From the NCBI RefSeq assembly GCF_001570365.1, contig NZ_BBYK01000056.1, forward strand, positions 62,001 through 126,000: a DNA stretch of 64,000 nt, written 5' to 3'. The notes below the pieces were generated by a model. That model saw only the letters and a program-made list of their open reading frames with translations. It was not told where the DNA came from and did not search any database. This DNA comes from Microtetraspora fusca. GTDB lineage: Bacteria; Actinomycetota; Actinomycetes; Streptosporangiales; Streptosporangiaceae. Each line of letters begins with the position of its first letter. The stretch's first letter is position 1. Below are positions 16,642-25,959 of the stretch, one piece after another. The translations under genes were made by a program, and so were the position numbers.

Positions 16642-18510
16642 CTATCGCTCCAGCAGACCGGCGATGAAGTCCTGCGTATCGGGATCGACCGAATAGATCG
16701 TCGTGCCGACCATGCCGCGGGTGAGCAGCACCTTGTAGGTGTTGCGGATCAACCGGTCCGCCTGCTCGTCCGTGACGGACCTCTTCGTCAGCGCGGGATC
16801 CCTGCTGGCGGCACGTACGGTGACCAGTCGTCCGTCGCGGTAGACCAGGTCGGGGCCGATGATGACGCCGTTCCAGTCGTACTCGAAGCCCTGGGCGGTG
16901 TACACGCAGCCGACCTGCTCGAAGCCGCCGTCCATGGTGGCCCACAATGCGCTGGCCGGGGCGTTTCCGACCGACCGGTCGCCCTTGGCGTTCCACGGCT
17001 TGGACCACTCGCCGATCCGCACGTCCGTGACCAGGGCGTCCTCGACAGGGTCGCTCCAACGCCAGCAGTAGCCGGCCGTCATCCGGGCCGAGTAGCCGTC
17101 CTGGAGCTTGCCGCGCAGCAGCGCCTCCAGTTCGTACGGCGACTCGGCCGGCGTGATGTCGAAGTGGTCGTCGCCCTTCCACGGCTCGGGGTTGCGGCCG
17201 TCCAGGCCGAGCAGGCACAGGACCCATTCCTCGTACACACGGCTGCCCCCACAGCGGTACTGCGCGTCAAGGTCGATCCGGTGGACAGCCAGGCCGAGGG
17301 ACGCGGCATGGGCCGTGATGTCGGCGACGCTTCCGGTCTCGCCCGGCCGCACCACCTGGTGCTCGTCCAGGAGGAAGACCGGCACGCGGGCGGCGGCGAT
17401 CAACTCGTCGAGCTGGGGACGCCCGGTGCGCTGGGCGGCCTTGGTGAAGCGGTTGGCCGATGTCTCCCGGATGCGGTGGGCCTCGTCGCAGATGAGCACG
17501 TCGAGGTCGTTGGGCGTGGCCGTCATGAAGTTGTTGAAGTATTTGAACATCGCCTTCATCCGCGTGGACCCCTTGGCCACGTGGCGGCGCATGGTCTCGG
17601 TGAAGGACCGTGACCCCGTGGCGTGGTGCGTCGCGTAGCCGCGCCCGGCCAGCTCGCCGAGCAGCGACAGGGCGATGACGCTCTTGCCCGAGCCCGGACC
17701 GCCGGTGACGATCACGACTTCCTTGGAGTTGGCCACACGGGCCTTCTCCACCGCGTGCAGCACCATCTCGTAGGCCAGGCGCTGCTGATCCAGCAGGACG
17801 AACTGGCCGCGATTCTTGATCTCGGCCGCGGCGACCGCCAGCAGCTGCTTGGACGGCCTGATCCTTGAGGACAGCAGCCGGTCGGCGGCGCCGGCGCCGG
17901 ACTCCGGAGCGAACTGCGCCTTGAGGTAATCGAGGAACGCGCCCCGGCGGGTCTTACTGAACAGGCGGGTGCGCTCGTCCTCGACCTTGTCGTAGAGGTC
18001 GCGGATATCCGGATCGCCGGCGTTGTGAAGGTAGGCGACGCCGCGGACCGCGTCGCGCCGGTCCTCGAGGGCGCTGACGAAGTCGGCGAGGTAGTCGCAG
18101 TAGCCGCGCACCTGGGTCACGGGGTGGAGCTTGGGGCAGGCGCCCAGACCGGAGACGAGGACCAGTTCCGGGTCGTCCTCGTACAGCTCCGCCTGGCTCC
18201 ACTGCTTAAGTTCGACGATCACGTACGCGTCCCCGCCGCCGCGCCGGTCCACCCCCGCGAGGATCACGTCGGCGCGCTTGCTCGTGAGGGGCAACTGGTA
18301 CTCCACGAGCATCTCGACGTTGCCGAGCCCGGCGTCGACCAGGTCGCGGGCCAGAACGGGCAGGCTGCGGTCCCATGACCTGCGCTCGCTCCTGCCCGGA
18401 TTGATGCCATGGGTGGAGCGCAGCGTCTCGGCGATCACCTCGCTCAACACCCTCTCCGGCATCGACGCGAGCTGGACCAGACTTTCCGCCGAGTGCCGAA
18501 TGACGGCCAC
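16642..18510 (-). CDS. PD-(D/E)XK nuclease-like domain fused to a DUF2075 ATPase/helicase
   Basis: A protein of about 622 residues with two parts. The N-terminal part has a restriction-nuclease-like signature: a conserved Asp in KRADVILAG followed by the E-x-K motif in YVIVELKQW. The rest is a DUF2075 (schlafen-like) P-loop ATPase with Walker A TGGPGSGKS, Walker B LDVLICDEAHRI and a C-terminal arginine region NTYKVLLTRGM. It probably acts on nucleic acid. I prefer GTG 18510 (VAVIRHS) because a GGGGGTAGG stretch precedes it; GTG 18531 is the longer alternative. It stands alone between unrelated operons, as many solitary defence or repair genes do. Function is inferred from domains only. Confidence 0.78.
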   Translation of the reverse strand: MAVIRHSAESLVQLASMPERVLSEVIAETLRSTHGINPGRSERRSWDRSLPVLARDLVDAGLGNVEMLVEYQLPLTSKRADVILAGVDRRGGGDAYVIVELKQWSQAELYEDDPELVLVSGLGACPKLHPVTQVRGYCDYLADFVSALEDRRDAVRGVAYLHNAGDPDIRDLYDKVEDERTRLFSKTRRGAFLDYLKAQFAPESGAGAADRLLSSRIRPSKQLLAVAAAEIKNRGQFVLLDQQRLAYEMVLHAVEKARVANSKEVVIVTGGPGSGKSVIALSLLGELAGRGYATHHATGSRSFTETMRRHVAKGSTRMKAMFKYFNNFMTATPNDLDVLICDEAHRIRETSANRFTKAAQRTGRPQLDELIAAARVPVFLLDEHQVVRPGETGSVADITAHAASLGLAVHRIDLDAQYRCGGSRVYEEWVLCLLGLDGRNPEPWKGDDHFDITPAESPYELEALLRGKLQDGYSARMTAGYCWRWSDPVEDALVTDVRIGEWSKPWNAKGDRSVGNAPASALWATMDGGFEQVGCVYTAQGFEYDWNGVIIGPDLVYRDGRLVTVRAASRDPALTKRSVTDEQADRLIRNTYKVLLTRGMVGTTIYSVDPDTQDFIAGLLER

Positions 18511-18730
18511 GGACCTACCCCCAGGCAGCACGAAGGACTCGTGCGGTATGGGGGCGTGTCCGCTCTCAGGCGAGCAGCGGAAGCCCGTCGGGCCGCATCA
18601 ACCGATACGCCGGGAAGATTACAGTGATCTACCGACGGAAGTCAGCCCGATGACCGTGCGCCGACCTCGCCCGACGGCGGAGGTCCGAGCAGGCGAGCCC
18701 GGGTTCCGCCGGCAGGCGGGGCGTCCGGGG

Positions 18731-19144
18731 TCAGGATGAGGGACGCCAGGAGGTGCCTTCGCCCTTCTCCGCCTCGTAGGCGGGGCGCGCGGTGACGGTG
18801 TCGTAGATGATGTGCAACGCGGCGATCCGGCCGTCGTCGGCGAGTTCGAGGACGTCGACGCATTCGAAGTCGGCCGGCTGGCCCGAGGGCAGCGTCCAGT
18901 CGAACTGGAACCAGATGGTGACGATCCGGCCGCCGCTCGTCGCGGCCCCCTCGGCCGCGCCGAGGAGGTTGAGCTTGGCCCGGCCCGTGTCCGCGAACAG
19001 TTCGGGATAGAACTCGGTGGCCGGGATCGGCCCGTACAGGGGCGAGTGCACGATCGCGCCGGGACGGTACAACGCCAGGACGGCGGGCAGGTCGCCGCGC
19101 GCCAGGGCGTCGAGGTAGGTCTCGGCGAGCTCCTTCGGGGTCAT
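18731..19144 (-). CDS. SnoaL-like / NTF2-fold protein
   Basis: 137-residue protein with the cone-shaped NTF2 fold expected from ELAETYLDALARGDLPAVLALYRPGAIVHSPLYG at the N-terminus (given as family phrasing, residues 4-37) and a C-terminal sheet ending VLELADDGRIAALHIIYD. SnoaL-like proteins are cyclases, isomerases, hydrolases or simple binding proteins in secondary metabolism. The start is ATG 19144, overlapping the stop of the upstream synthetase-like gene (ATGA). As last gene of the five-gene operon it may process the product. No catalytic residue can be assigned with confidence. Confidence 0.72.
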   Translation of the reverse strand: MTPKELAETYLDALARGDLPAVLALYRPGAIVHSPLYGPIPATEFYPELFADTGRAKLNLLGAAEGAATSGGRIVTIWFQFDWTLPSGQPADFECVDVLELADDGRIAALHIIYDTVTARPAYEAEKGEGTSWRPSS

Positions 19145-20688
19145 GCGGGTCGGGTCCTTTCTCCGCCGCTGAGGCGGTCCAGCGTGTCGAGGTCGAGGGT
19201 CAGCGCGGCGACGCCGTCGGGCAGGCGGAGGCGGCGCAGGACGGCGGGATCGAGTTCGCCCGCCTCGCCGACCGAGGTCCCGTCCACGGTCAGGCGGGCC
19301 CACCGATCGCCGTGCCAGGGCCAGGCGCTTCGCGTGCCGCCCGGCCCGCCCTCGGTCCGGAGGCGCAGGCCCCAGTGAAGGCCCACCGCGTGACCCGCGG
19401 TGACGGCGGCGTGCCAGTCGCCGCCTGTCAGGGCCGCCGCCAGGTGATGGGGCTGGGCGGGGATCGCCGCGTCCAGGGCCGCCAGCTCCTCCGGGCGCGG
19501 CGGGCTGCCCGCGGGCAGCGGCGGCGGGTGGAGGCCGCCGGGCGGGCGCGGGAAGACGGCCCCCTGCTCGAACACCATCAGGCCGCCCGGAGAGCGCCGC
19601 GCCCGTAGCTCGGCGAGTACGCCGGGGAGCAGCGAGGTGCGCAGCGCGGCCGGGTACCCGTCGAGGGGGTTGGCGACACGCAACTGGGCGCGGTGCGGGT
19701 CGTCCGGCGGCAGGCCGAACGCGTCCCAGACGGCCGGGTCCAGGAACGGGAAGGTCTGGGTCTCCGTCCAGCCGGCGGCGGTGAGCGCGTGTGCCGCCGC
19801 CTGCCGTCGCCGGAACGGCGACACCGGCTCCGCCCGGGCGAGAGCGCCCGGGACGCGCGCCCGGTTCGCCGCCGGGCGAGGCGGGGCGAGAAGGGGCTCG
19901 CCCGCCCGTGCCGCCGCCGGGCGAGGGCGGTCACTCGGGACGTCCGCCCGCACCGCGGCCGGGCGAGGCCGGTCGTGCCCGAGTACGTCGCGGATGTCGC
20001 GCAGCCCGTGGCGCAGCATCAGCGTGCGTTCGACCCCCAGGCCGAAGGCGAAGCCCGTGTGGCGGCCCGGGTCGACGCCGCAGGTGGCCAGCACACGCGG
20101 GTGGACCATGCCGCAGCCCGCCCACTCGATCCAGCCGTCCTCGCACAGGTCGCATCCTCCGCCCCGGCAGGTCGGGCAGCGCACGTCCGCCTCCGCCGAC
20201 GGGTCGGTGTAGGCGAACCAGTGCGGGCGCAGCCGTACCGGCGTGCTGTCCCCGAACATCGCGGCGGCCAGGTGCCCGAGCGTGGCGCACAGGTCGTCCA
20301 TCGTCAGCCCTTCGGCGACGGCCAGCCCCTCGGCCTGGTGGAAGACGGGGCTGTGCGTGGCGTCCGGCGGATCGGGACGGAAGACGCGGCCGACCGTCAC
20401 CATGCGGAGCGGCGCGCGGTGGCCGAGCATCGCACGCACCTGCACGGGTGACGTGTGGCCGCGCAGCACCAGGCCCGACGGCCCGCCGCCGGAACCGTGG
20501 ATGGAGAAGGTGCCGTCGGCGGAGCGGCTGGGGTGGTCGGCGGCCATGTTGAGCGCGTCGAAGTTCAGCCACTCGGCCTCGACCTCGGGTCCCTCGGCGA
20601 CGCGGTATCCCTCGCCGGCGAGCAGGTCCACGATCTCCTCGGCCAGGGCCGCCACCGGATGGCGGGCGGCGGCCGGACGGTCGGCCAT
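19141..20688 (-). CDS. Single-chain PheS-PheT hybrid (phenylalanyl-tRNA synthetase paralogue)
   Basis: A 515-residue protein joining two halves of phenylalanyl-tRNA synthetase. Residues 1-238 are a PheS catalytic core: HTSPVQ (78-83), motif 2 GRVFRPD (Arg101-Arg104), FHQAEG, a zinc knuckle C171PTC174...C179DLC182, GMVHP and motif 3 FGLGVER (Arg221). A linker of about 60 residues with repeats follows. Residues about 295-510 match the pseudo-catalytic core of PheT (AAGWTETQTFPF, ANPLDGYPAALRTSLLPG, GEAGELDP). Missing are the PheS N-terminal coiled coil and PheT's editing, tRNA-binding and FDX-ACB domains. It is therefore unlikely to charge tRNA normally; adenylation and amide or ester formation on another acceptor is the inference. 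It overlaps the SnoaL gene by four bases. Confidence 0.88.
   Translation of the reverse strand: MADRPAAARHPVAALAEEIVDLLAGEGYRVAEGPEVEAEWLNFDALNMAADHPSRSADGTFSIHGSGGGPSGLVLRGHTSPVQVRAMLGHRAPLRMVTVGRVFRPDPPDATHSPVFHQAEGLAVAEGLTMDDLCATLGHLAAAMFGDSTPVRLRPHWFAYTDPSAEADVRCPTCRGGGCDLCEDGWIEWAGCGMVHPRVLATCGVDPGRHTGFAFGLGVERTLMLRHGLRDIRDVLGHDRPRPAAVRADVPSDRPRPAAARAGEPLLAPPRPAANRARVPGALARAEPVSPFRRRQAAAHALTAAGWTETQTFPFLDPAVWDAFGLPPDDPHRAQLRVANPLDGYPAALRTSLLPGVLAELRARRSPGGLMVFEQGAVFPRPPGGLHPPPLPAGSPPRPEELAALDAAIPAQPHHLAAALTGGDWHAAVTAGHAVGLHWGLRLRTEGGPGGTRSAWPWHGDRWARLTVDGTSVGEAGELDPAVLRRLRLPDGVAALTLDLDTLDRLSGGERTRPA
19862..19975 (-). repeat. Imperfect triplicated linker repeat in the PheS-PheT hybrid gene
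   Basis: Three imperfect copies of a GC-rich unit containing GCCGCCGGGCGAGG or a near match lie about 42-45 bases apart. They encode PRPAAVRA, PRPAAARA and PRPAANRA, at roughly residues 240-280. They form the flexible link between the PheS-like and PheT-like modules, so the linker has probably grown by local duplication. Confidence 0.65.
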
Positions 20689-20691
20689 GGG

Positions 20692-21903
20692 TCAGCGCCC
20701 TTCGAGGACCCAGGCCGCGATGCGGTTGTGGACGAGGTCCATCTGGTCCCAGGCCCGGCGGCAGATCGCCACGAGCCGGGGGATCTCCGAGGGAGGCATC
20801 GTGGCCAGCCGGTGGCGCCCGAGCTCCCGGTGCTCGTCGTCGGCGACGGCGTGCAGGGCGAAGAAGTCGTCGCCTGCGGCGTCCCGGGCGCACACGTCAG
20901 AGGCGGTGGAGTCGCCGCACATGCCGGAGGGGGCGGAGTCCCGGCCGTACACGTCGGAGGCGGCCCCTCCGAACAGATGGCCGCTGGTCTCGACGACCAT
21001 GTGGACCAGGACGATCTTCTGGGCCTCGTCCAGCTGGTACATCTGGGCGACGAACCAGGTGCAGACCGCGTCCAGCACGGGGTCGTCGACCTCGTCGAGG
21101 ACGCCGTAACGGTCGCGCAGCAGCCGGTCGTGGCCGTACTCCTCACGCAGGTGCGCCTCGTACTCCTCGCGCAGGACGGGATCGACGCAGACGGCCTGGC
21201 GGGCGAGCAGCATCCGCTGGAAGTGGCGCGACCACACGTGCAGCGCCGCGACGAAACGGGCGCGCATCCGCGGATCCTTCCGGAGCCGGCCGGTGCGCAG
21301 CAGCCGGAACAGGTCGTTGCCGGTGTGCCGCTCGGCGAGGGAGGCGTTGATCTCCTCCAGCTCCGCGAGCGACGCCGGGACGTCGGAGCCGTCCGGGACC
21401 GCCTCCACGATGTCGTCCACTGCGCCGCCCACTGCGTCGTCCGCGGTGTCGTCCATGTCGTCGGCGAACGACACCCGGGGCGCGAGCTCGTCCTCGTACA
21501 GGCCGGCGCCCTCGAACTGCACGGACAGGCCGTGGAACTCCTGGCCCGGCTCGGTGCGGAACCCGTGCGCGCATCCGGGAGGCACGCACACCACGTCGCC
21601 TTCGGAGAGTGGTCGTTCCCGCTCTCCCAGCAGCCGCACCGATCCCCGGCAGACGATGATCATCGAACTCGTCGGGTGGCTGTGCACGGCCAGCTCCTCG
21701 CCATCGCGGAGCCGTACCCACGCGAAGGACGGCCGTCCGTAGTCGGGCAGGAACGCCGATAGGACGGGGTGGCGCCGGAAGTCGCGCTGCTGCCCGAGCC
21801 GGTGCACCTCCCCGTCGACCACGACCGAGGTGATCGGCCGGATCTGCGCGCGTGCGACGGAGGTCACGGATGTGACGGCGTCCGTCGTCGCCATTGTGGT
21901 CAT
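20692..21903 (-). CDS. Cupin fused to a haem-oxygenase-like diiron (HDO) domain
   Basis: 403-residue fusion. Residues about 55-130 form a cupin with metal-ligand spacing (HSHPTSS, His74 and His76; a later His in CAHGF). Residues about 175-403 form a haem-oxygenase-like helical domain. Candidate diiron ligands lie on three helices: REEYEAHLREEYGH (Glu247/248, His251, Glu254/255, His258), HMVVETSGH (His301, Glu305, His309) and HAVADDEH (His351, Asp355/356, His358). HDO enzymes oxidise amines, amino acids or fatty acids. AGAAGGA lies five bases before the ATG at 21903. The start overlaps the aminotransferase stop; only three bases separate its stop from the next ATG. Iron and substrate assignments are inference. 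Confidence 0.8.
   Translation of the reverse strand: MTTMATTDAVTSVTSVARAQIRPITSVVVDGEVHRLGQQRDFRRHPVLSAFLPDYGRPSFAWVRLRDGEELAVHSHPTSSMIIVCRGSVRLLGERERPLSEGDVVCVPPGCAHGFRTEPGQEFHGLSVQFEGAGLYEDELAPRVSFADDMDDTADDAVGGAVDDIVEAVPDGSDVPASLAELEEINASLAERHTGNDLFRLLRTGRLRKDPRMRARFVAALHVWSRHFQRMLLARQAVCVDPVLREEYEAHLREEYGHDRLLRDRYGVLDEVDDPVLDAVCTWFVAQMYQLDEAQKIVLVHMVVETSGHLFGGAASDVYGRDSAPSGMCGDSTASDVCARDAAGDDFFALHAVADDEHRELGRHRLATMPPSEIPRLVAICRRAWDQMDLVHNRIAAWVLEGR
20884..20964 (-). repeat. Three tandem 27-base repeats inside the cupin-HDO gene
   Basis: Three imperfect 27-base units, each containing CAC or TAC, then GTC/GCC and GGAGGCGG or a variant. They encode nine-residue units: ASDVYGRDS, APSGMCGDS and TASDVCARD (about residues 316-342). 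They sit between two of the helices that carry predicted metal ligands, where most family members have a short loop. Confidence 0.75.
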
Positions 21904-23060
21904 GTGGGTCCTTCTCTTTCGTCTATGTGGACGCCGTTCTCGGCGAGGACGGCGAGGAGCCGGTCGTTGTCGGCCGGTTCTCCGACCGAGAAGCGCAGGC
22001 GGCCGCGCCAGCCCATCGGGTCGGGCAGGACGGCCAGGCCGGCGGCGCGCAGCCGTCCGGCGACCTCGGACGCCGGGCGCTCCGTGCGCACGGTCACGAA
22101 CCCCGCCGCCGCGCCGACCCAGAGGATGCCGGGGCAGCGGCGCAGCCCTGCGGCGAGCCGATCGCGTTCCGCCGTGAACATCTCGACGCCGCGGCGCAGG
22201 GCCGCCGGATCGGCCAGCGCCGCGGCCGCTTCCGCGGCCACCGGGGCCGGGAGCGCGAAGGGCAGGCGGGCCCGCCGCAGCGCGGCGACGATCCCGGGCT
22301 GCGCGAGCACCGCCCCCAGCCGCAGCCCGGCCAGCCCGAGCGCCTTGGACATGGAGCGGACGACGACGAGGTTCGGATGGCGGGGGACGAGGTGCCGGTG
22401 GGAGGCGCGGCCGGTGTACTCCACGTAGGCCTCGTCCACCACCACGAGGCCGTCGTAGGCGGCCAGCAGCCGCTCGACCTCGCCTTGACGCAGCGACGTC
22501 CCTGACGGGTTGCCCGGATCGCACAGGATGACGCCGGCCGCCCCCGAGCGGGCCAGCGTCGGGACGTCCAGCCGGTCGTGCCCGGGACCGAGGAGCGGCC
22601 CCCGCAGCCGCTCGACCTCGTGGACGGCGGCCAGCTCGTCGAAGAGCGCGAAAAACGGCGGCGTGACCGCCACCGCGTCCGCGCGGGGTTCGAAGAAGGC
22701 GCGGAACACCAGGTCCAGGGCGTCACCGGCGCCGCGGGTGAGCAGGATCGTCTCCGGGCCCCAGCGCCAGTCCTCAGGCGGAGCCGCCGCGGCGGCTCCG
22801 TGGCCCTCGAGGACGTCGAGCGCATCGGCGTACAGGCCGACCAGCGGGCGGTTCGTGTTGTCGGGGTAGCGCCGGTGCGGGCCGGCGAACGGGTTCTCGT
22901 TGTCCCTGAGGTTGACCAGGCCCTCGTCCTCGGGACGCGACTCGAACAGGAACGAGGGGCGGAGCGACCTGATCGCCCTCCGGGCGGGCCATCCGCCCCC
23001 TTCAACCGCGGCCCGCCGCGCTCCGGGCGCGGCGGGCGTGGGTCCGGCCGGTCCGGCCAT
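21900..23060 (-). CDS. HisC-like PLP-dependent aminotransferase
   Basis: 386-residue class I/II aminotransferase, cytoplasmic. It has DNENPFAGPHRRYPD near residue 53, as in histidinol-phosphate aminotransferases, then NPSG (Asn184), VVVDEAY (Asp209) and the PLP lysine Lys239 in SMSKALGLAGLRLG. An Ala/Gly/Pro-rich extension of about 25 residues precedes the fold. A housekeeping HisC would sit in a his operon; this copy lies between an EF-hand gene and the cupin-HDO gene, overlapping both (TGATG and ATGA), so a pathway-specific role in making or consuming an amino acid is likely. The substrate cannot be read from the sequence. Confidence 0.87.
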   Translation of the reverse strand: MAGPAGPTPAAPGARRAAVEGGGWPARRAIRSLRPSFLFESRPEDEGLVNLRDNENPFAGPHRRYPDNTNRPLVGLYADALDVLEGHGAAAAAPPEDWRWGPETILLTRGAGDALDLVFRAFFEPRADAVAVTPPFFALFDELAAVHEVERLRGPLLGPGHDRLDVPTLARSGAAGVILCDPGNPSGTSLRQGEVERLLAAYDGLVVVDEAYVEYTGRASHRHLVPRHPNLVVVRSMSKALGLAGLRLGAVLAQPGIVAALRRARLPFALPAPVAAEAAAALADPAALRRGVEMFTAERDRLAAGLRRCPGILWVGAAAGFVTVRTERPASEVAGRLRAAGLAVLPDPMGWRGRLRFSVGEPADNDRLLAVLAENGVHIDEREGPT

Positions 23061-23629
23061 CAGCGGGCGGGCGCCGTCAATCCGTGGACGGGGATGTCGG
23101 AGCGCGCCGACGTGTAGTAGTCCACGATGGTCGCGGCCCAGACGTCCACCGGGACCAGGCCGTCGCCCGACTCGTCCAGGTCGGCGAAGAGCCTCTCGAC
23201 GTTGGCCTTGGCGAACCCGACCGTGGTCATGAGCGTGACGAAGTCGTCGAGCTCGATGAACCCGTCGTCGTTCCGGTCCGCCAGGGCGGCCAGCGACTCC
23301 GCGTAGCCGACGACGGTCTCCCGGGCCTCGACGGGTGCTCCGAGCCGTGCCATGTACTCCTGCGGGCTGATCCGGCCGTCGCCGTCGGTGTCGAGCGCCG
23401 CGAGCAGGCCCTCCCAGTAGCGCCGGTGTCCGGCCAGGACCGCCTGCCCCTTCCGCGACCCCTCCGGCTCGTCCATCGCCGCCAGGACGTCGGCGGCCAG
23501 CCGTTCGAAGTCGTCACTCTCCAGGTATCCGTTGCCGTCGGCGTCGAGCATCCGGAACCGGAATCGCAGCCGCTCCAGCACGCCGGGGCTCGCCTCGGTG
23601 CCCGACATGTGCGCAGGTTCGTAAGACAT
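23060..23629 (-). CDS. Four-EF-hand calcium-binding protein (calerythrin-like)
   Basis: 189-residue soluble protein with four EF-hand loops: DADGNGYLESDD, DTDGDGRISPQE, DRNDDGFIELDD and DESGDGLVPVDV. Positions 1, 3, 5 and 12 are intact in the first three loops; the fourth ends in Val rather than Glu, so it may not bind calcium well. The overall arrangement resembles calerythrin and sarcoplasmic calcium-binding proteins. I choose ATG 23629, four bases after GGGAGG; ATG 23641 would place that ribosome binding site inside the gene. It is the first gene of the operon and its stop overlaps the aminotransferase start. Calcium buffering or calcium-dependent control of the pathway is inference. Confidence 0.87.
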   Translation of the reverse strand: MSYEPAHMSGTEASPGVLERLRFRFRMLDADGNGYLESDDFERLAADVLAAMDEPEGSRKGQAVLAGHRRYWEGLLAALDTDGDGRISPQEYMARLGAPVEARETVVGYAESLAALADRNDDGFIELDDFVTLMTTVGFAKANVERLFADLDESGDGLVPVDVWAATIVDYYTSARSDIPVHGLTAPAR

Positions 23630-23677
23630 ACGACCTCCCATCGCTTTGCGCGTTCATGAAGATACATTGAGTGACCG

Positions 23678-23756: not shown

Positions 23757-24560
23757 ATGTTGATCACAGATGAGGAGCTGGCCCTCGCGGCGGCGGAGGC
23801 GGGGGCGGCCGTCGTGCGCGCCATGTACGGTTCGTCACCGGTGCGCGTCCAGAAGGCCGCCGGCGACTTCGCCACGGCCGCCGACATCGAGGCGGAGCAG
23901 GCGATCCTCGACGTCATCCGCGCCGCCCGGCCGGACGACGCCGTGACCGGCGAGGAGAGCGGACGTACGGGATCGGCCGGCGCGGGACGGATGTGGCTGG
24001 TCGACCCGCTGTGCGGCACGCTCAACTACGCCGCGCGGACCATGCTGGTCGCGGTGAACGTCGCCCTGCGCGTCGGCTCGGACGTCACCGCGGCGGCCTC
24101 CGCCGATCCGTTCGCCGACGAGGTGTTCTGGACGGACGGCGACCGCGCCTACGTCCGCCGCGACGGCGTGGACGAGAGGCTCGCGCCGTCGTCCGGTTCC
24201 CGGCTGGTGGACGTCAATCTCGATCCGCCGTTCCCGAACGCGCCGGGCTTCCAGGCGGCCCGCCTGCTCTGCGACCCGCGGTTCGTCGAGCGGTTCCGCC
24301 CGCGCGTCGTGTCCACCACCCTGGCGGTGGCCTGGGTCGCCGCCGGCCGGCGCGCCGCGTACGTCACCGACGGCCACCTGCGGGACAGCGTTCACTTCGC
24401 GAGCGGGATCGCGCTGTGCCAGGCCGCCGGATGCGTGGTGACCGACCTGCGCGGCGAGCCGCCGCACACCGGAGCGGGCGGGCTGGTCGCGGCGGCCGAC
24501 CGGGAGACGCACGCCGCGCTGCTGGAACTCATCGGCGACCAGCGGTCGCCCGATCGGTGA
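23757..24560 (+). CDS. Inositol-monophosphatase-family protein with an altered metal site
   Basis: 267 residues of the lithium-sensitive phosphatase fold (inositol monophosphatase, CysQ, fructose bisphosphatase). GDFATAADIEAE and GEESG (Glu66-Glu67) are conserved. The key motif, normally DPxDGT, reads DPLCGT: Asp83 is kept but the second metal-ligand Asp is Cys86. The later WD-x-A-A-G motif is also lost (DSVHFASGIALC). The protein therefore probably has altered or no phosphatase activity, or is a subfamily with a different metal arrangement. It is divergent from the EF-hand operon and is followed after about 70 bases by nicotinate phosphoribosyltransferase, perhaps co-transcribed. Confidence 0.82.
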   Translation: MLITDEELALAAAEAGAAVVRAMYGSSPVRVQKAAGDFATAADIEAEQAILDVIRAARPDDAVTGEESGRTGSAGAGRMWLVDPLCGTLNYAARTMLVAVNVALRVGSDVTAAASADPFADEVFWTDGDRAYVRRDGVDERLAPSSGSRLVDVNLDPPFPNAPGFQAARLLCDPRFVERFRPRVVSTTLAVAWVAAGRRAAYVTDGHLRDSVHFASGIALCQAAGCVVTDLRGEPPHTGAGGLVAAADRETHAALLELIGDQRSPDR

Positions 24561-24630
24561 CGCCGGTGCCCCGCCCCTGATCGGAGCCTCGTCCGTGCCT
24601 GTCCACCTCGTGGGTGGGCAGGGGAGTGGC

Positions 24631-25959
24631 ATGCCGGGTGGACTGCTGACCGACATGTACGAGCTGAACATGGCGGCGAGCTACCTGCGGCACGGCATGA
24701 CGGACCAGGCGACCTTCAGCCTGTTCGCCCGCCGCCTGCCCGCGGGCCGGGGCTTCCTGGTCGCCGCCGGGCTGGAGGACGCCCTGGACTTCCTCGAGAG
24801 CTTCGCGCTTGAGCCCGAGGATCTCGCCTACCTGCGTGAAGTCCAGGGGTACGACGCCGAGACGCTCCGCGCGCTCGCCGGCCTGCGGTTCACCGGGGAG
24901 GTCTGGGCCGTCCCCGAGGGGCGCGCGGTCTTCGCGGGCGAGCCGCTGCTGGAGGTGACCGCGCCGATCGCCGAGGCGCAGCTCGTCGAGACCGTCCTGC
25001 TCAACCACCTGACCTTCCAGACGAGCGTGGCCTCCAAGGCGGCCCGCTGCGTGCTCGCCGCCGACGGAGCGCGGCTGATCGACTTCGCGTTCCGTCGTAC
25101 GCAGGGGATCGAGGCCGGCGTCGCCGTGGCTCGGGCGACCGCGATCGCCGGGTTCGCGGCCACCAGCAACGCGGAGGGCGCCCGGCGGCACGGCCTGCCC
25201 GCCTCAGGGACCATGGCGCACTCTTACGTCCAGGCGTTCCCGGACGAGGAGGCGGCGTTCGCCGCCTTCGCGGCGGACTTCCCCGACCGGACGACGTTCC
25301 TGGTGGACACGTACGACACGGTCGCCGGTGTGCGGACCGCCGCCGAGGTGGCGCGGCGGCTGGAGCTCGCGGGCAGCGCCGTGGGCGTGCGCCTGGACTC
25401 GGGCGACCTGGCCGACCTGGCCGTGCGGGCGCGCCGGCTGCTGGACGCCGCCGGGCTGCGGCAGGCGGTGATCGTGGCGAGCGGAGGGCTGGACGAGTAC
25501 GCGATCGCGGACCTGGTACGGGCCGGGGCCCCGATCGACGCGTACGGCGTGGGCACCAGGGTCGGCGTCTCGGCCGACGCGCCCTCGCTGGACACGGCCT
25601 ACAAGCTGGTGGCCTACGGCGACCGCCCCGTGATGAAGCTCTCCCCGGGGAAGATGACGCTGCCGGGGGCGAAGCAGGTGTTCCGCGGGCCGCGCTCCGA
25701 CGTGATCGCGCTGCGCGAGGAGGCCCCGCCGCCCGGCTGGCGGCCGCTGCTCGTCCCCGTGGTGGTCGCGGGCCACCGGGTCGCTCCTCCCGAACGCATC
25801 GGGGTGATGCGCGACCGCTGCATGAGCGAGCTGGCCCGGCTGCCGGCGCCCGTCCGGGTCCTGCGCGCGCCCGGCACGGTCCCCGTGGAGATCAGCCCCC
25901 GGCTGCGGCGGCTCCAGGACGACCTCGTACGGACCCTCCGTGGGCGCGGCCCGGCGTGA
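24631..25959 (+). CDS. pncB: Nicotinate phosphoribosyltransferase
   Basis: Cytoplasmic enzyme of NAD salvage: nicotinate plus PRPP (with ATP) gives nicotinate mononucleotide. The 442-residue protein shows LLTDMYELNMAASYL at the N-terminus, DFAFRRTQGIEAG, then ASGTMAHSYVQAF with the catalytic His of the family, LDSGDL, and VGTRVGVSADAPSLDTAYKL for phosphate binding. I choose ATG 24631 because AGGGGAG precedes it and the family begins there; GTG 24595 would add 12 residues. The gene follows the phosphatase-like gene on the same strand. Confidence 0.92.
   Translation: MPGGLLTDMYELNMAASYLRHGMTDQATFSLFARRLPAGRGFLVAAGLEDALDFLESFALEPEDLAYLREVQGYDAETLRALAGLRFTGEVWAVPEGRAVFAGEPLLEVTAPIAEAQLVETVLLNHLTFQTSVASKAARCVLAADGARLIDFAFRRTQGIEAGVAVARATAIAGFAATSNAEGARRHGLPASGTMAHSYVQAFPDEEAAFAAFAADFPDRTTFLVDTYDTVAGVRTAAEVARRLELAGSAVGVRLDSGDLADLAVRARRLLDAAGLRQAVIVASGGLDEYAIADLVRAGAPIDAYGVGTRVGVSADAPSLDTAYKLVAYGDRPVMKLSPGKMTLPGAKQVFRGPRSDVIALREEAPPPGWRPLLVPVVVAGHRVAPPERIGVMRDRCMSELARLPAPVRVLRAPGTVPVEISPRLRRLQDDLVRTLRGRGPA

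Follow-up and report, generated by a model that had tools for sequence, protein, structure and literature searches.

A 64,000-nucleotide stretch of the genome of Microtetraspora fusca (the window, by which we mean this whole stretch) carries on its minus strand five genes that follow one another from position 23629 down to 18731, as read from the open reading frames (ORFs). They form a true, rare and conserved operon, probably for the production of an undescribed metabolite, for which a plausible mechanism is offered below. The genes are:

23629-23060, minus strand: EF-hand protein, 189 amino acids (Pfam EF-hand_7, 7e-21); the first gene, and an optional one
23060-21900, minus strand: HisC-like fold type I pyridoxal-phosphate-dependent aminotransferase, 386 amino acids (Pfam Aminotran_1_2, 3e-40)
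21903-20692, minus strand: cupin-HDO fusion, 403 amino acids (Pfam Cupin_2, 1.5e-8, residues 62-118), with a putative C-terminal haem-oxygenase-like diiron (HDO) domain
20688-19141, minus strand: single-chain PheS-PheT hybrid, 515 amino acids (tRNA-synt_2d, 1.6e-76, and the tRNA_synthFbeta CLM domain, 2.5e-25)
19144-18731, minus strand: SnoaL-like protein, 137 amino acids (Pfam SnoaL_2, 1.3e-10)

Pfam thus identifies four of the five proteins outright, plus the cupin half of the cupin-HDO protein. The EF-hand and aminotransferase genes overlap by TGATG, the aminotransferase and cupin-HDO genes by ATGA, and the hybrid and SnoaL-like genes again by ATGA, while three bases separate the cupin-HDO gene from that of the hybrid. 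All of this (the genes, their order, the overlaps and the gap) agrees with the original prediction. The EF-hand gene is read from an ATG at 23629, and an in-frame ATG at 23641 is likewise open.

One scan of a species-genome collection, with the cupin-HDO protein as query, returned 18 pattern-matching stretches, six of which proved to be relatives: Microtetraspora malaysiensis (L009), M. niveoalba (L010), Streptosporangium saharense (L011), S. violaceochromogenes (L012), S. carneum (L013) and the enterobacterium Samsonia erythrinae (L014). At five of these six loci (L010 to L014), the genes for the HisC-like, cupin-HDO, hybrid and SnoaL-like proteins stand in the same order as in the window, and the core proteins are 40-89% identical to those of the window. 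The genes therefore do co-occur in other genomes, as the original prediction supposed. It had also supposed a fully coupled unit of five. The conserved unit comprises four genes: the EF-hand gene adjoins it in only three of the six loci with a complete core (the window, L010 and L013), and no EF-hand gene related to that of the window precedes the HisC-like gene in L011, L012 or L014.

The ratio of nonsynonymous to synonymous substitution rates (dN/dS) lies between 0.18 and 0.66 for all five genes when the window is compared with L010, L011 and L013 (for the EF-hand gene, with L010 and L013 only). Because the DNA is so rich in GC, dS has probably come out too low. By this measure, the intact copies of the operon are under purifying selection. 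Since the order of the four-gene core is the same at five of the six related loci, and in view of the dN/dS values, we could rule out that the five genes are merely chance neighbors. The sixth locus, in M. malaysiensis (L009, 9827-11400), is a decayed copy, with a dN/dS of 0.78 relative to the window. Only the end of the aminotransferase gene is left, interrupted by a stop, and the match to the hybrid extends over 18 residues.

The operon is also rare. Among 200 genomes from the family to which the window belongs, 39 match a profile of the cupin-HDO protein at E ≤ 0.001. Just six do so along the whole profile (E ≤ 4e-162); in the remaining 33, the match is limited to the N-terminal, cupin-containing half. 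Identical alignment values suggest that three of the six are those of L010, L012 and L009. With stricter limits, the profile finds one of 396 genomes of the window's phylum (that of the window itself), one of 295 genomes of Samsonia's order and one of 398 of its phylum (Samsonia both times), and one of 72,556 plasmid records (from Embleya, 35% identity). These counts describe samples of genomes rather than complete sets. The four-gene set is rare, confined in these samples to a few soil actinobacteria and one unrelated bacterium.

In the cupin-HDO protein, the cupin (residues 62-118) precedes the HDO region (about 179-401). Each half retains candidate metal ligands, encoded as follows:

21565-21684, minus strand: codons of the cupin metal site, H74 (21684-21682), H76 (21678-21676) and H113 (21567-21565)
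20830-21141, minus strand: codons of the candidate diiron ligands E255, H258, E305, H351, D355 and H358, from the nine-row alignment A5

The three cupin histidines are invariant in all seven rows of alignment A1 and all eight of A4. The six candidate diiron ligands are identical in all nine rows of A5, an alignment that includes the Embleya protein and leaves out the decayed protein of L009. The latter is altered at two of these positions (E255 and H351) and has leucine in place of the cupin residue S80, found in all eight rows of A4. The structure model predicts seven long helices (at least 15 residues each) within residues 179-401, and Pfam family PF14518 matches seven of the nine HDO regions of the protein's family at E ≤ 1, the best with 8.5e-7. 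Taken with the contrary results given below, this is moderate evidence for an HDO fold in the C-terminal half.

The hybrid unites in one chain parts of the two subunits of phenylalanyl-tRNA synthetase (PheRS): the catalytic core of PheS (residues 5-239) and the CLM domain of PheT (residues 292-500). It matches no other Pfam family. Pfam found in it none of the domains through which PheRS handles tRNA (the N-terminal coil, B1-B5 and FDX-ACB), nor any anticodon, editing or DNA-binding domain. The class II motifs fRxD and GxGxER are retained in all six hybrids aligned. What has changed is a site of three residues, placed by alignment with 12 housekeeping PheS proteins, seven of them from genomes that bear or once bore the operon and five from others:

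20209-20217, minus strand: codons of F158-A159-Y160, at the position of FPF in housekeeping PheS

FPF is present in all 12 housekeeping proteins, and in PheRS structures it lines the phenylalanine pocket. The six aligned hybrids have F-A-Y (five) or F-S-Y (one), and a seventh, from family genome G141 (L086), has F-T-Y, so that F-[AST]-Y describes all seven.

Might the hybrid serve not a pathway but translation, as a spare or resistant PheRS, or else as a sensor of amino acids? Extra copies of synthetases are known as a means of self-resistance, and the retention of the catalytic motifs would suit such a role. We nonetheless reject a spare PheRS because no tRNA-handling domain was matched. Also, a separate PheS is present in each of the seven operon-bearing or once-bearing genomes looked at, and the lack of a matched DNA-binding domain speaks against a sensor. 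We regard these roles as very improbable.

The ancestry of the hybrid was approached through trees of its PheS part (18 rows) and its PheT part (17 rows, as the PheT of the window's own genome was not recovered), both drawn up without the L086 protein. The six hybrids form a single clade in both (99/99, 100/100), lying within or beside the actinobacterial rows, though the forks surrounding the clade are weakly supported. The Samsonia hybrid falls inside this clade and away from Samsonia's own PheRS. Since all six, that of Samsonia included, group together, we read the trees as indicating a single origin from an actinobacterial pheS-pheT pair, with transfer towards Samsonia. The hybrid gene there has a GC content of 52%, close to the 49% of its flanks, which suggests that the transfer was not recent.

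The best NCBIfam match of the HisC-like protein is TIGR01141 (hisC), with 209.5 bits, so the aminotransferase of the window does not reach the score set for equivalogs of histidinol-phosphate aminotransferase (276.55). The SnoaL-like protein belongs to SnoaL_2 (42.2 bits against a cut-off of 27). Its counterparts in L010 to L014 are 65-89% identical to it, and its gene accompanies the hybrid in all six core operons; none was found in the decayed L009, nor in L055, L056, L058 or L086 (loci described below). Matches to SnoaL on Burkholderia plasmids (57 records) were considered and set aside: in the five annotated neighborhoods examined, each match stands by itself, with a LysR-type regulator next to it in three, and none of the five has an HDO, AurF or nonribosomal peptide synthetase (NRPS) gene beside the match. 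A sixth neighborhood carries no annotation. The nearest solved chains to the EF-hand protein are 3akb and calerythrin (1nya). Its relatives adjoin the HisC-like gene in L010, L013, L055 and L056, and perhaps its role is calcium-dependent regulation.

What the pathway might act on is suggested by a second version of the operon. In family genomes G157 (L055) and G178 (L056), the EF-hand, HisC-like and cupin-HDO genes are followed by a gene encoding a pyridoxal-dependent decarboxylase, which replaces both the hybrid and the SnoaL-like protein. Tyrosine decarboxylase (TIGR03811) is the best NCBIfam match of the two decarboxylases (4e-95 and 7e-81, respectively), with scores of 319.5 and 272.5 bits, both below the cut-off of 905.3. 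The best solved chains for the L055 enzyme are 5hsi and the 7cwx group, labelled just as decarboxylases in the file and which we take to be tyrosine decarboxylases; also among the best four is 6ebn, described as a "non canonical aromatic amino acid decarboxylase". The HisC-like and cupin-HDO genes are therefore a module shared by the versions of the operon. In the simplest scheme, the second module would decide the fate of an amino acid's carboxyl group. Two unrelated families occupy the same position, both associated with chemistry at the alpha-carboxyl of aromatic amino acids, and so the shared module probably supplies an aromatic amino acid in oxidized form; one version of the operon would go on to activate its carboxyl, the other to remove it.

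The same modularity shows that the parts of the operon can separate. The cupin-HDO gene occurs without the hybrid in L055, L056 and the Embleya locus (L058), and the hybrid stands alone in L086. Altogether, the ten cupin-HDO genes comprise six in core operons, two in the decarboxylase version, one decayed and one with other partners. A search of the 200 family genomes for the hybrid (seven candidates scored per genome) gave four at E ≤ 1e-130, and of the seven distinct hybrids, six lie in a core operon and one does not. It could be supposed from these separations that there are two loosely associated units, the HisC-like and cupin-HDO proteins acting in one pathway and the hybrid doing a separate job. 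We think this unlikely, for six of the seven hybrids come directly behind the HisC-like and cupin-HDO genes, in the same order even in Samsonia, and the genes in the window overlap tightly.

Our reading, then, is of an operon that is complete in itself, has crossed at least once between distantly related bacteria and makes a small metabolite derived from an aromatic amino acid. To the scheme as a whole we give a probability of about 0.4. The HisC-like enzyme would make or recycle, by transamination, an alpha-amino acid of the aromatic type. The cupin-HDO protein would oxidize it with O2 at a coupled pair of non-haem metal sites: the diiron site would perform an N-oxygenation or a C-C cleavage, and a step at the three-histidine cupin would follow (as in SznF, with the domains in the other order). 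The hybrid would then adenylate the carboxyl group of the oxidized amino acid and transfer the acyl moiety onto some small acceptor, and the SnoaL-like protein might close or rearrange the product. In the sister operons, the tyrosine-decarboxylase-like enzyme, in place of the hybrid and the SnoaL-like protein, would have the same carboxyl as its target. It is possible, if somewhat doubtful, that an actinobacterial pheS-pheT pair was in this way trimmed to a single-chain ligase, free of the parts that deal with tRNA, that activates what the HisC-like and cupin-HDO proteins provide, activation and decarboxylation being interchangeable exits. The original prediction had an amino acid oxidized by the diiron protein and activated by the synthetase paralog; the protein families and the pocket residues are consistent with that outline, and its chemistry stands as a proposal. 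On balance, its interpretation is partly supported.

Several observations count against the scheme. The hybrid gene of L086 (9119-10855, minus strand), an intact ORF of 578 residues, has no core partners; in the 19.9 kb of that locus, no match to HisC, cupin-HDO or SnoaL was better than E = 0.04. The cupin-HDO relative on the Embleya megaplasmid (L058, 8820-13008, plus strand) lies behind a fusion of aldehyde dehydrogenase and MaoC and a zinc alcohol dehydrogenase. In the window's protein, the HDO half matches PF14518 only with E = 0.06, below the Pfam gathering score, and a comparison with solved sequences gave nothing at E ≤ 10. When the HDO region of A5 was compared using hhalign, it matched neither the HamA-type HDO nor TenA (probabilities of 1.2% and 0.2%), and the 50 listed of 155 significant Foldseek matches to the cupin-HDO protein are all cupin-type proteins. 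The structure model of the hybrid is poor (mean predicted local distance difference test score of 52). Finally, HisC-like enzymes are not bound to aromatic substrates.

If the scheme is true, PheRS has been recruited into a metabolite pathway alongside a cupin-HDO chemistry, neither of which was found described in the literature searched. Synthetase paralogs on the one hand and HDO or cupin enzymes on the other each mark pathways to unusual, often nitrogen-oxidized metabolites, and a compact set of four genes common to actinobacteria and one enterobacterium offers a clean entry to new chemistry. The exchange with a decarboxylase provides a built-in test of the class of substrate. In addition, a PheRS of which only the catalytic alpha-beta module is left, as a single chain, could be of use as a tool for forming amides or esters.

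The surroundings of the operon vary. In the window, a gene encoding a protein with a DNA/RNA helicase domain of the Schlafen group 3 type (PF09848, 5e-84) lies downstream on the same strand (16642-18531, minus strand); a different gene occupies the 3' side in M. niveoalba. On the other side (23757-25959, plus strand) is a divergent gene of the inositol-monophosphatase family (1.9e-37), followed, as judged by eye, by one resembling nicotinate phosphoribosyltransferase. The decayed operon of M. malaysiensis also has a close copy of the inositol-monophosphatase family gene beside it (8911-9714 of L009). In M. niveoalba, a TenA/PqqC-like gene (2.9e-39) and a PucR-type regulator (4.7e-25) immediately precede the operon (5883-8159 of L010, plus strand), a pair not seen beside the operon in the other loci read. 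A look at inverted repeats gave nothing that bears on the reading. The hybrid of L086 sits between flanks that match those of the operon in Streptosporangium, with a small ORF bearing two EF-hands and a transporter-like gene upstream. Such small EF-hand ORFs lie upstream in four loci of the Streptosporangium type (L011, 8114-8278; L012, 5868-6035; L013, 7151-7321; L086, 11493-11708), and all are distinct from the operon's EF-hand gene.

How does the operon compare with known systems? Among the matches listed from the open-access literature (MIBiG not included), we found no characterized cluster that matches it, as the original prediction had supposed, no described counterpart of the gene set and no ligase derived from PheRS in a pathway of this kind. 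The hybrid shares with PheS and PheT the class II catalytic core, the CLM domain and an actinobacterial ancestry, and differs from them in being one chain, in the lack of any matched tRNA-handling domain and in the change from FPF to F-[AST]-Y. SrmL (NCBIfam NF051887) is likewise derived from PheS and is annotated as a ligase of unexplained role, but the hybrid scores only 113.7 bits against that family's cut-off of 300; no paper on SrmL was among the open-access matches listed. A SrmL-like gene scoring below the cut-off occurs in one of 198 genomes (L087/L088). It has other neighbors and, by eye, no CLM part, and neither cupin-HDO, HisC nor SnoaL genes of the window's type are near it in L088. 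This PheS paralog (L088, 6451-8227, plus strand; 292.3 bits against 300) lies, by eye, among housekeeping genes and is apparently continued by an FDX-ACB-like ORF.

The ham/mgo/pvf pathway to diazeniumdiolates also brings together in one cluster an HDO, a cupin, a cyclase-like protein, an aminotransferase and the activation of an amino acid. One might therefore suppose that the operon likewise makes a diazeniumdiolate that acts as a signal or metallophore, the hybrid standing in for the NRPS HamD, and on paper the roles of HamA (HDO), HamB (cupin), HamE (cyclase-like) and HamG (aminotransferase) correspond, according to excerpts of PMC5878181 and PMC11659414. The proteins themselves belong to other families. 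In an unannotated record of Burkholderia cenocepacia (L068), whose cluster was assigned as ham by its gene content, HamA is of the DUF3050 type and HamE of the Polyketide_cyc2 type, whereas the operon has a cupin-HDO protein and SnoaL_2. HamA and A5 did not match by hhalign, although both relate to PF14518, and the ham pathway uses an NRPS for activation and an AurF-type oxygenase, neither of which is among the operon's five proteins. Such a pathway seems to us quite improbable.

The hydrazine synthetases PyrN, Spb40 and RHS1 are tRNA-free enzymes derived from a synthetase and found beside a cupin and a candidate N-oxygenase, the same three roles as here (excerpts of PMC8664883 and PMC11705231). 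By analogy, the HDO domain might N-hydroxylate an amine, the hybrid esterify the N-OH with an aminoacyl adenylate, and the cupin rearrange the ester to a hydrazine. This too we hold to be unlikely. The window's cupin has H74 and S80 at the positions of D63 and the essential E69 of RHS1 (PMC8664883, in excerpt); the cupin is fused to an HDO domain; the synthetase partner is derived from PheRS, not related to methionyl-tRNA synthetase (MetRS) as in the hydrazine synthetases; and the cupin-HDO genes of L055 and L056 have no adjoining synthetase gene. Because the cupin lacks the glutamate and its partner is not MetRS-like, the operon does not belong with the hydrazine synthetases. They and the ham pathway are analogies of role only.

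We turn last to SznF, the N-nitrosourea synthase of streptozotocin biosynthesis, in which an oxidized amino acid pathway of the kind we favor would find its model for the coupling of two metal sites. SznF differs from the other HDOs characterized in having a C-terminal cupin (as stated in an excerpt of PMC13108848), whereas in the cupin-HDO protein the cupin is N-terminal. The spacing of the first Glu-His pair of ligands also differs, ten in SznF and three here (PMC11705231, in excerpt). The two are alike in carrying a diiron HDO domain (a putative one here) and a three-histidine cupin in one chain. H407, H409 and H448 of the SznF cupin, as given in the passages cited, correspond to H74, H76 and H113, and the run H311, D315, H318 of SznF (an excerpt of PMC11705231) has the same H-x3-D-x2-H pattern as H351, D355 and H358 of the cupin-HDO protein.

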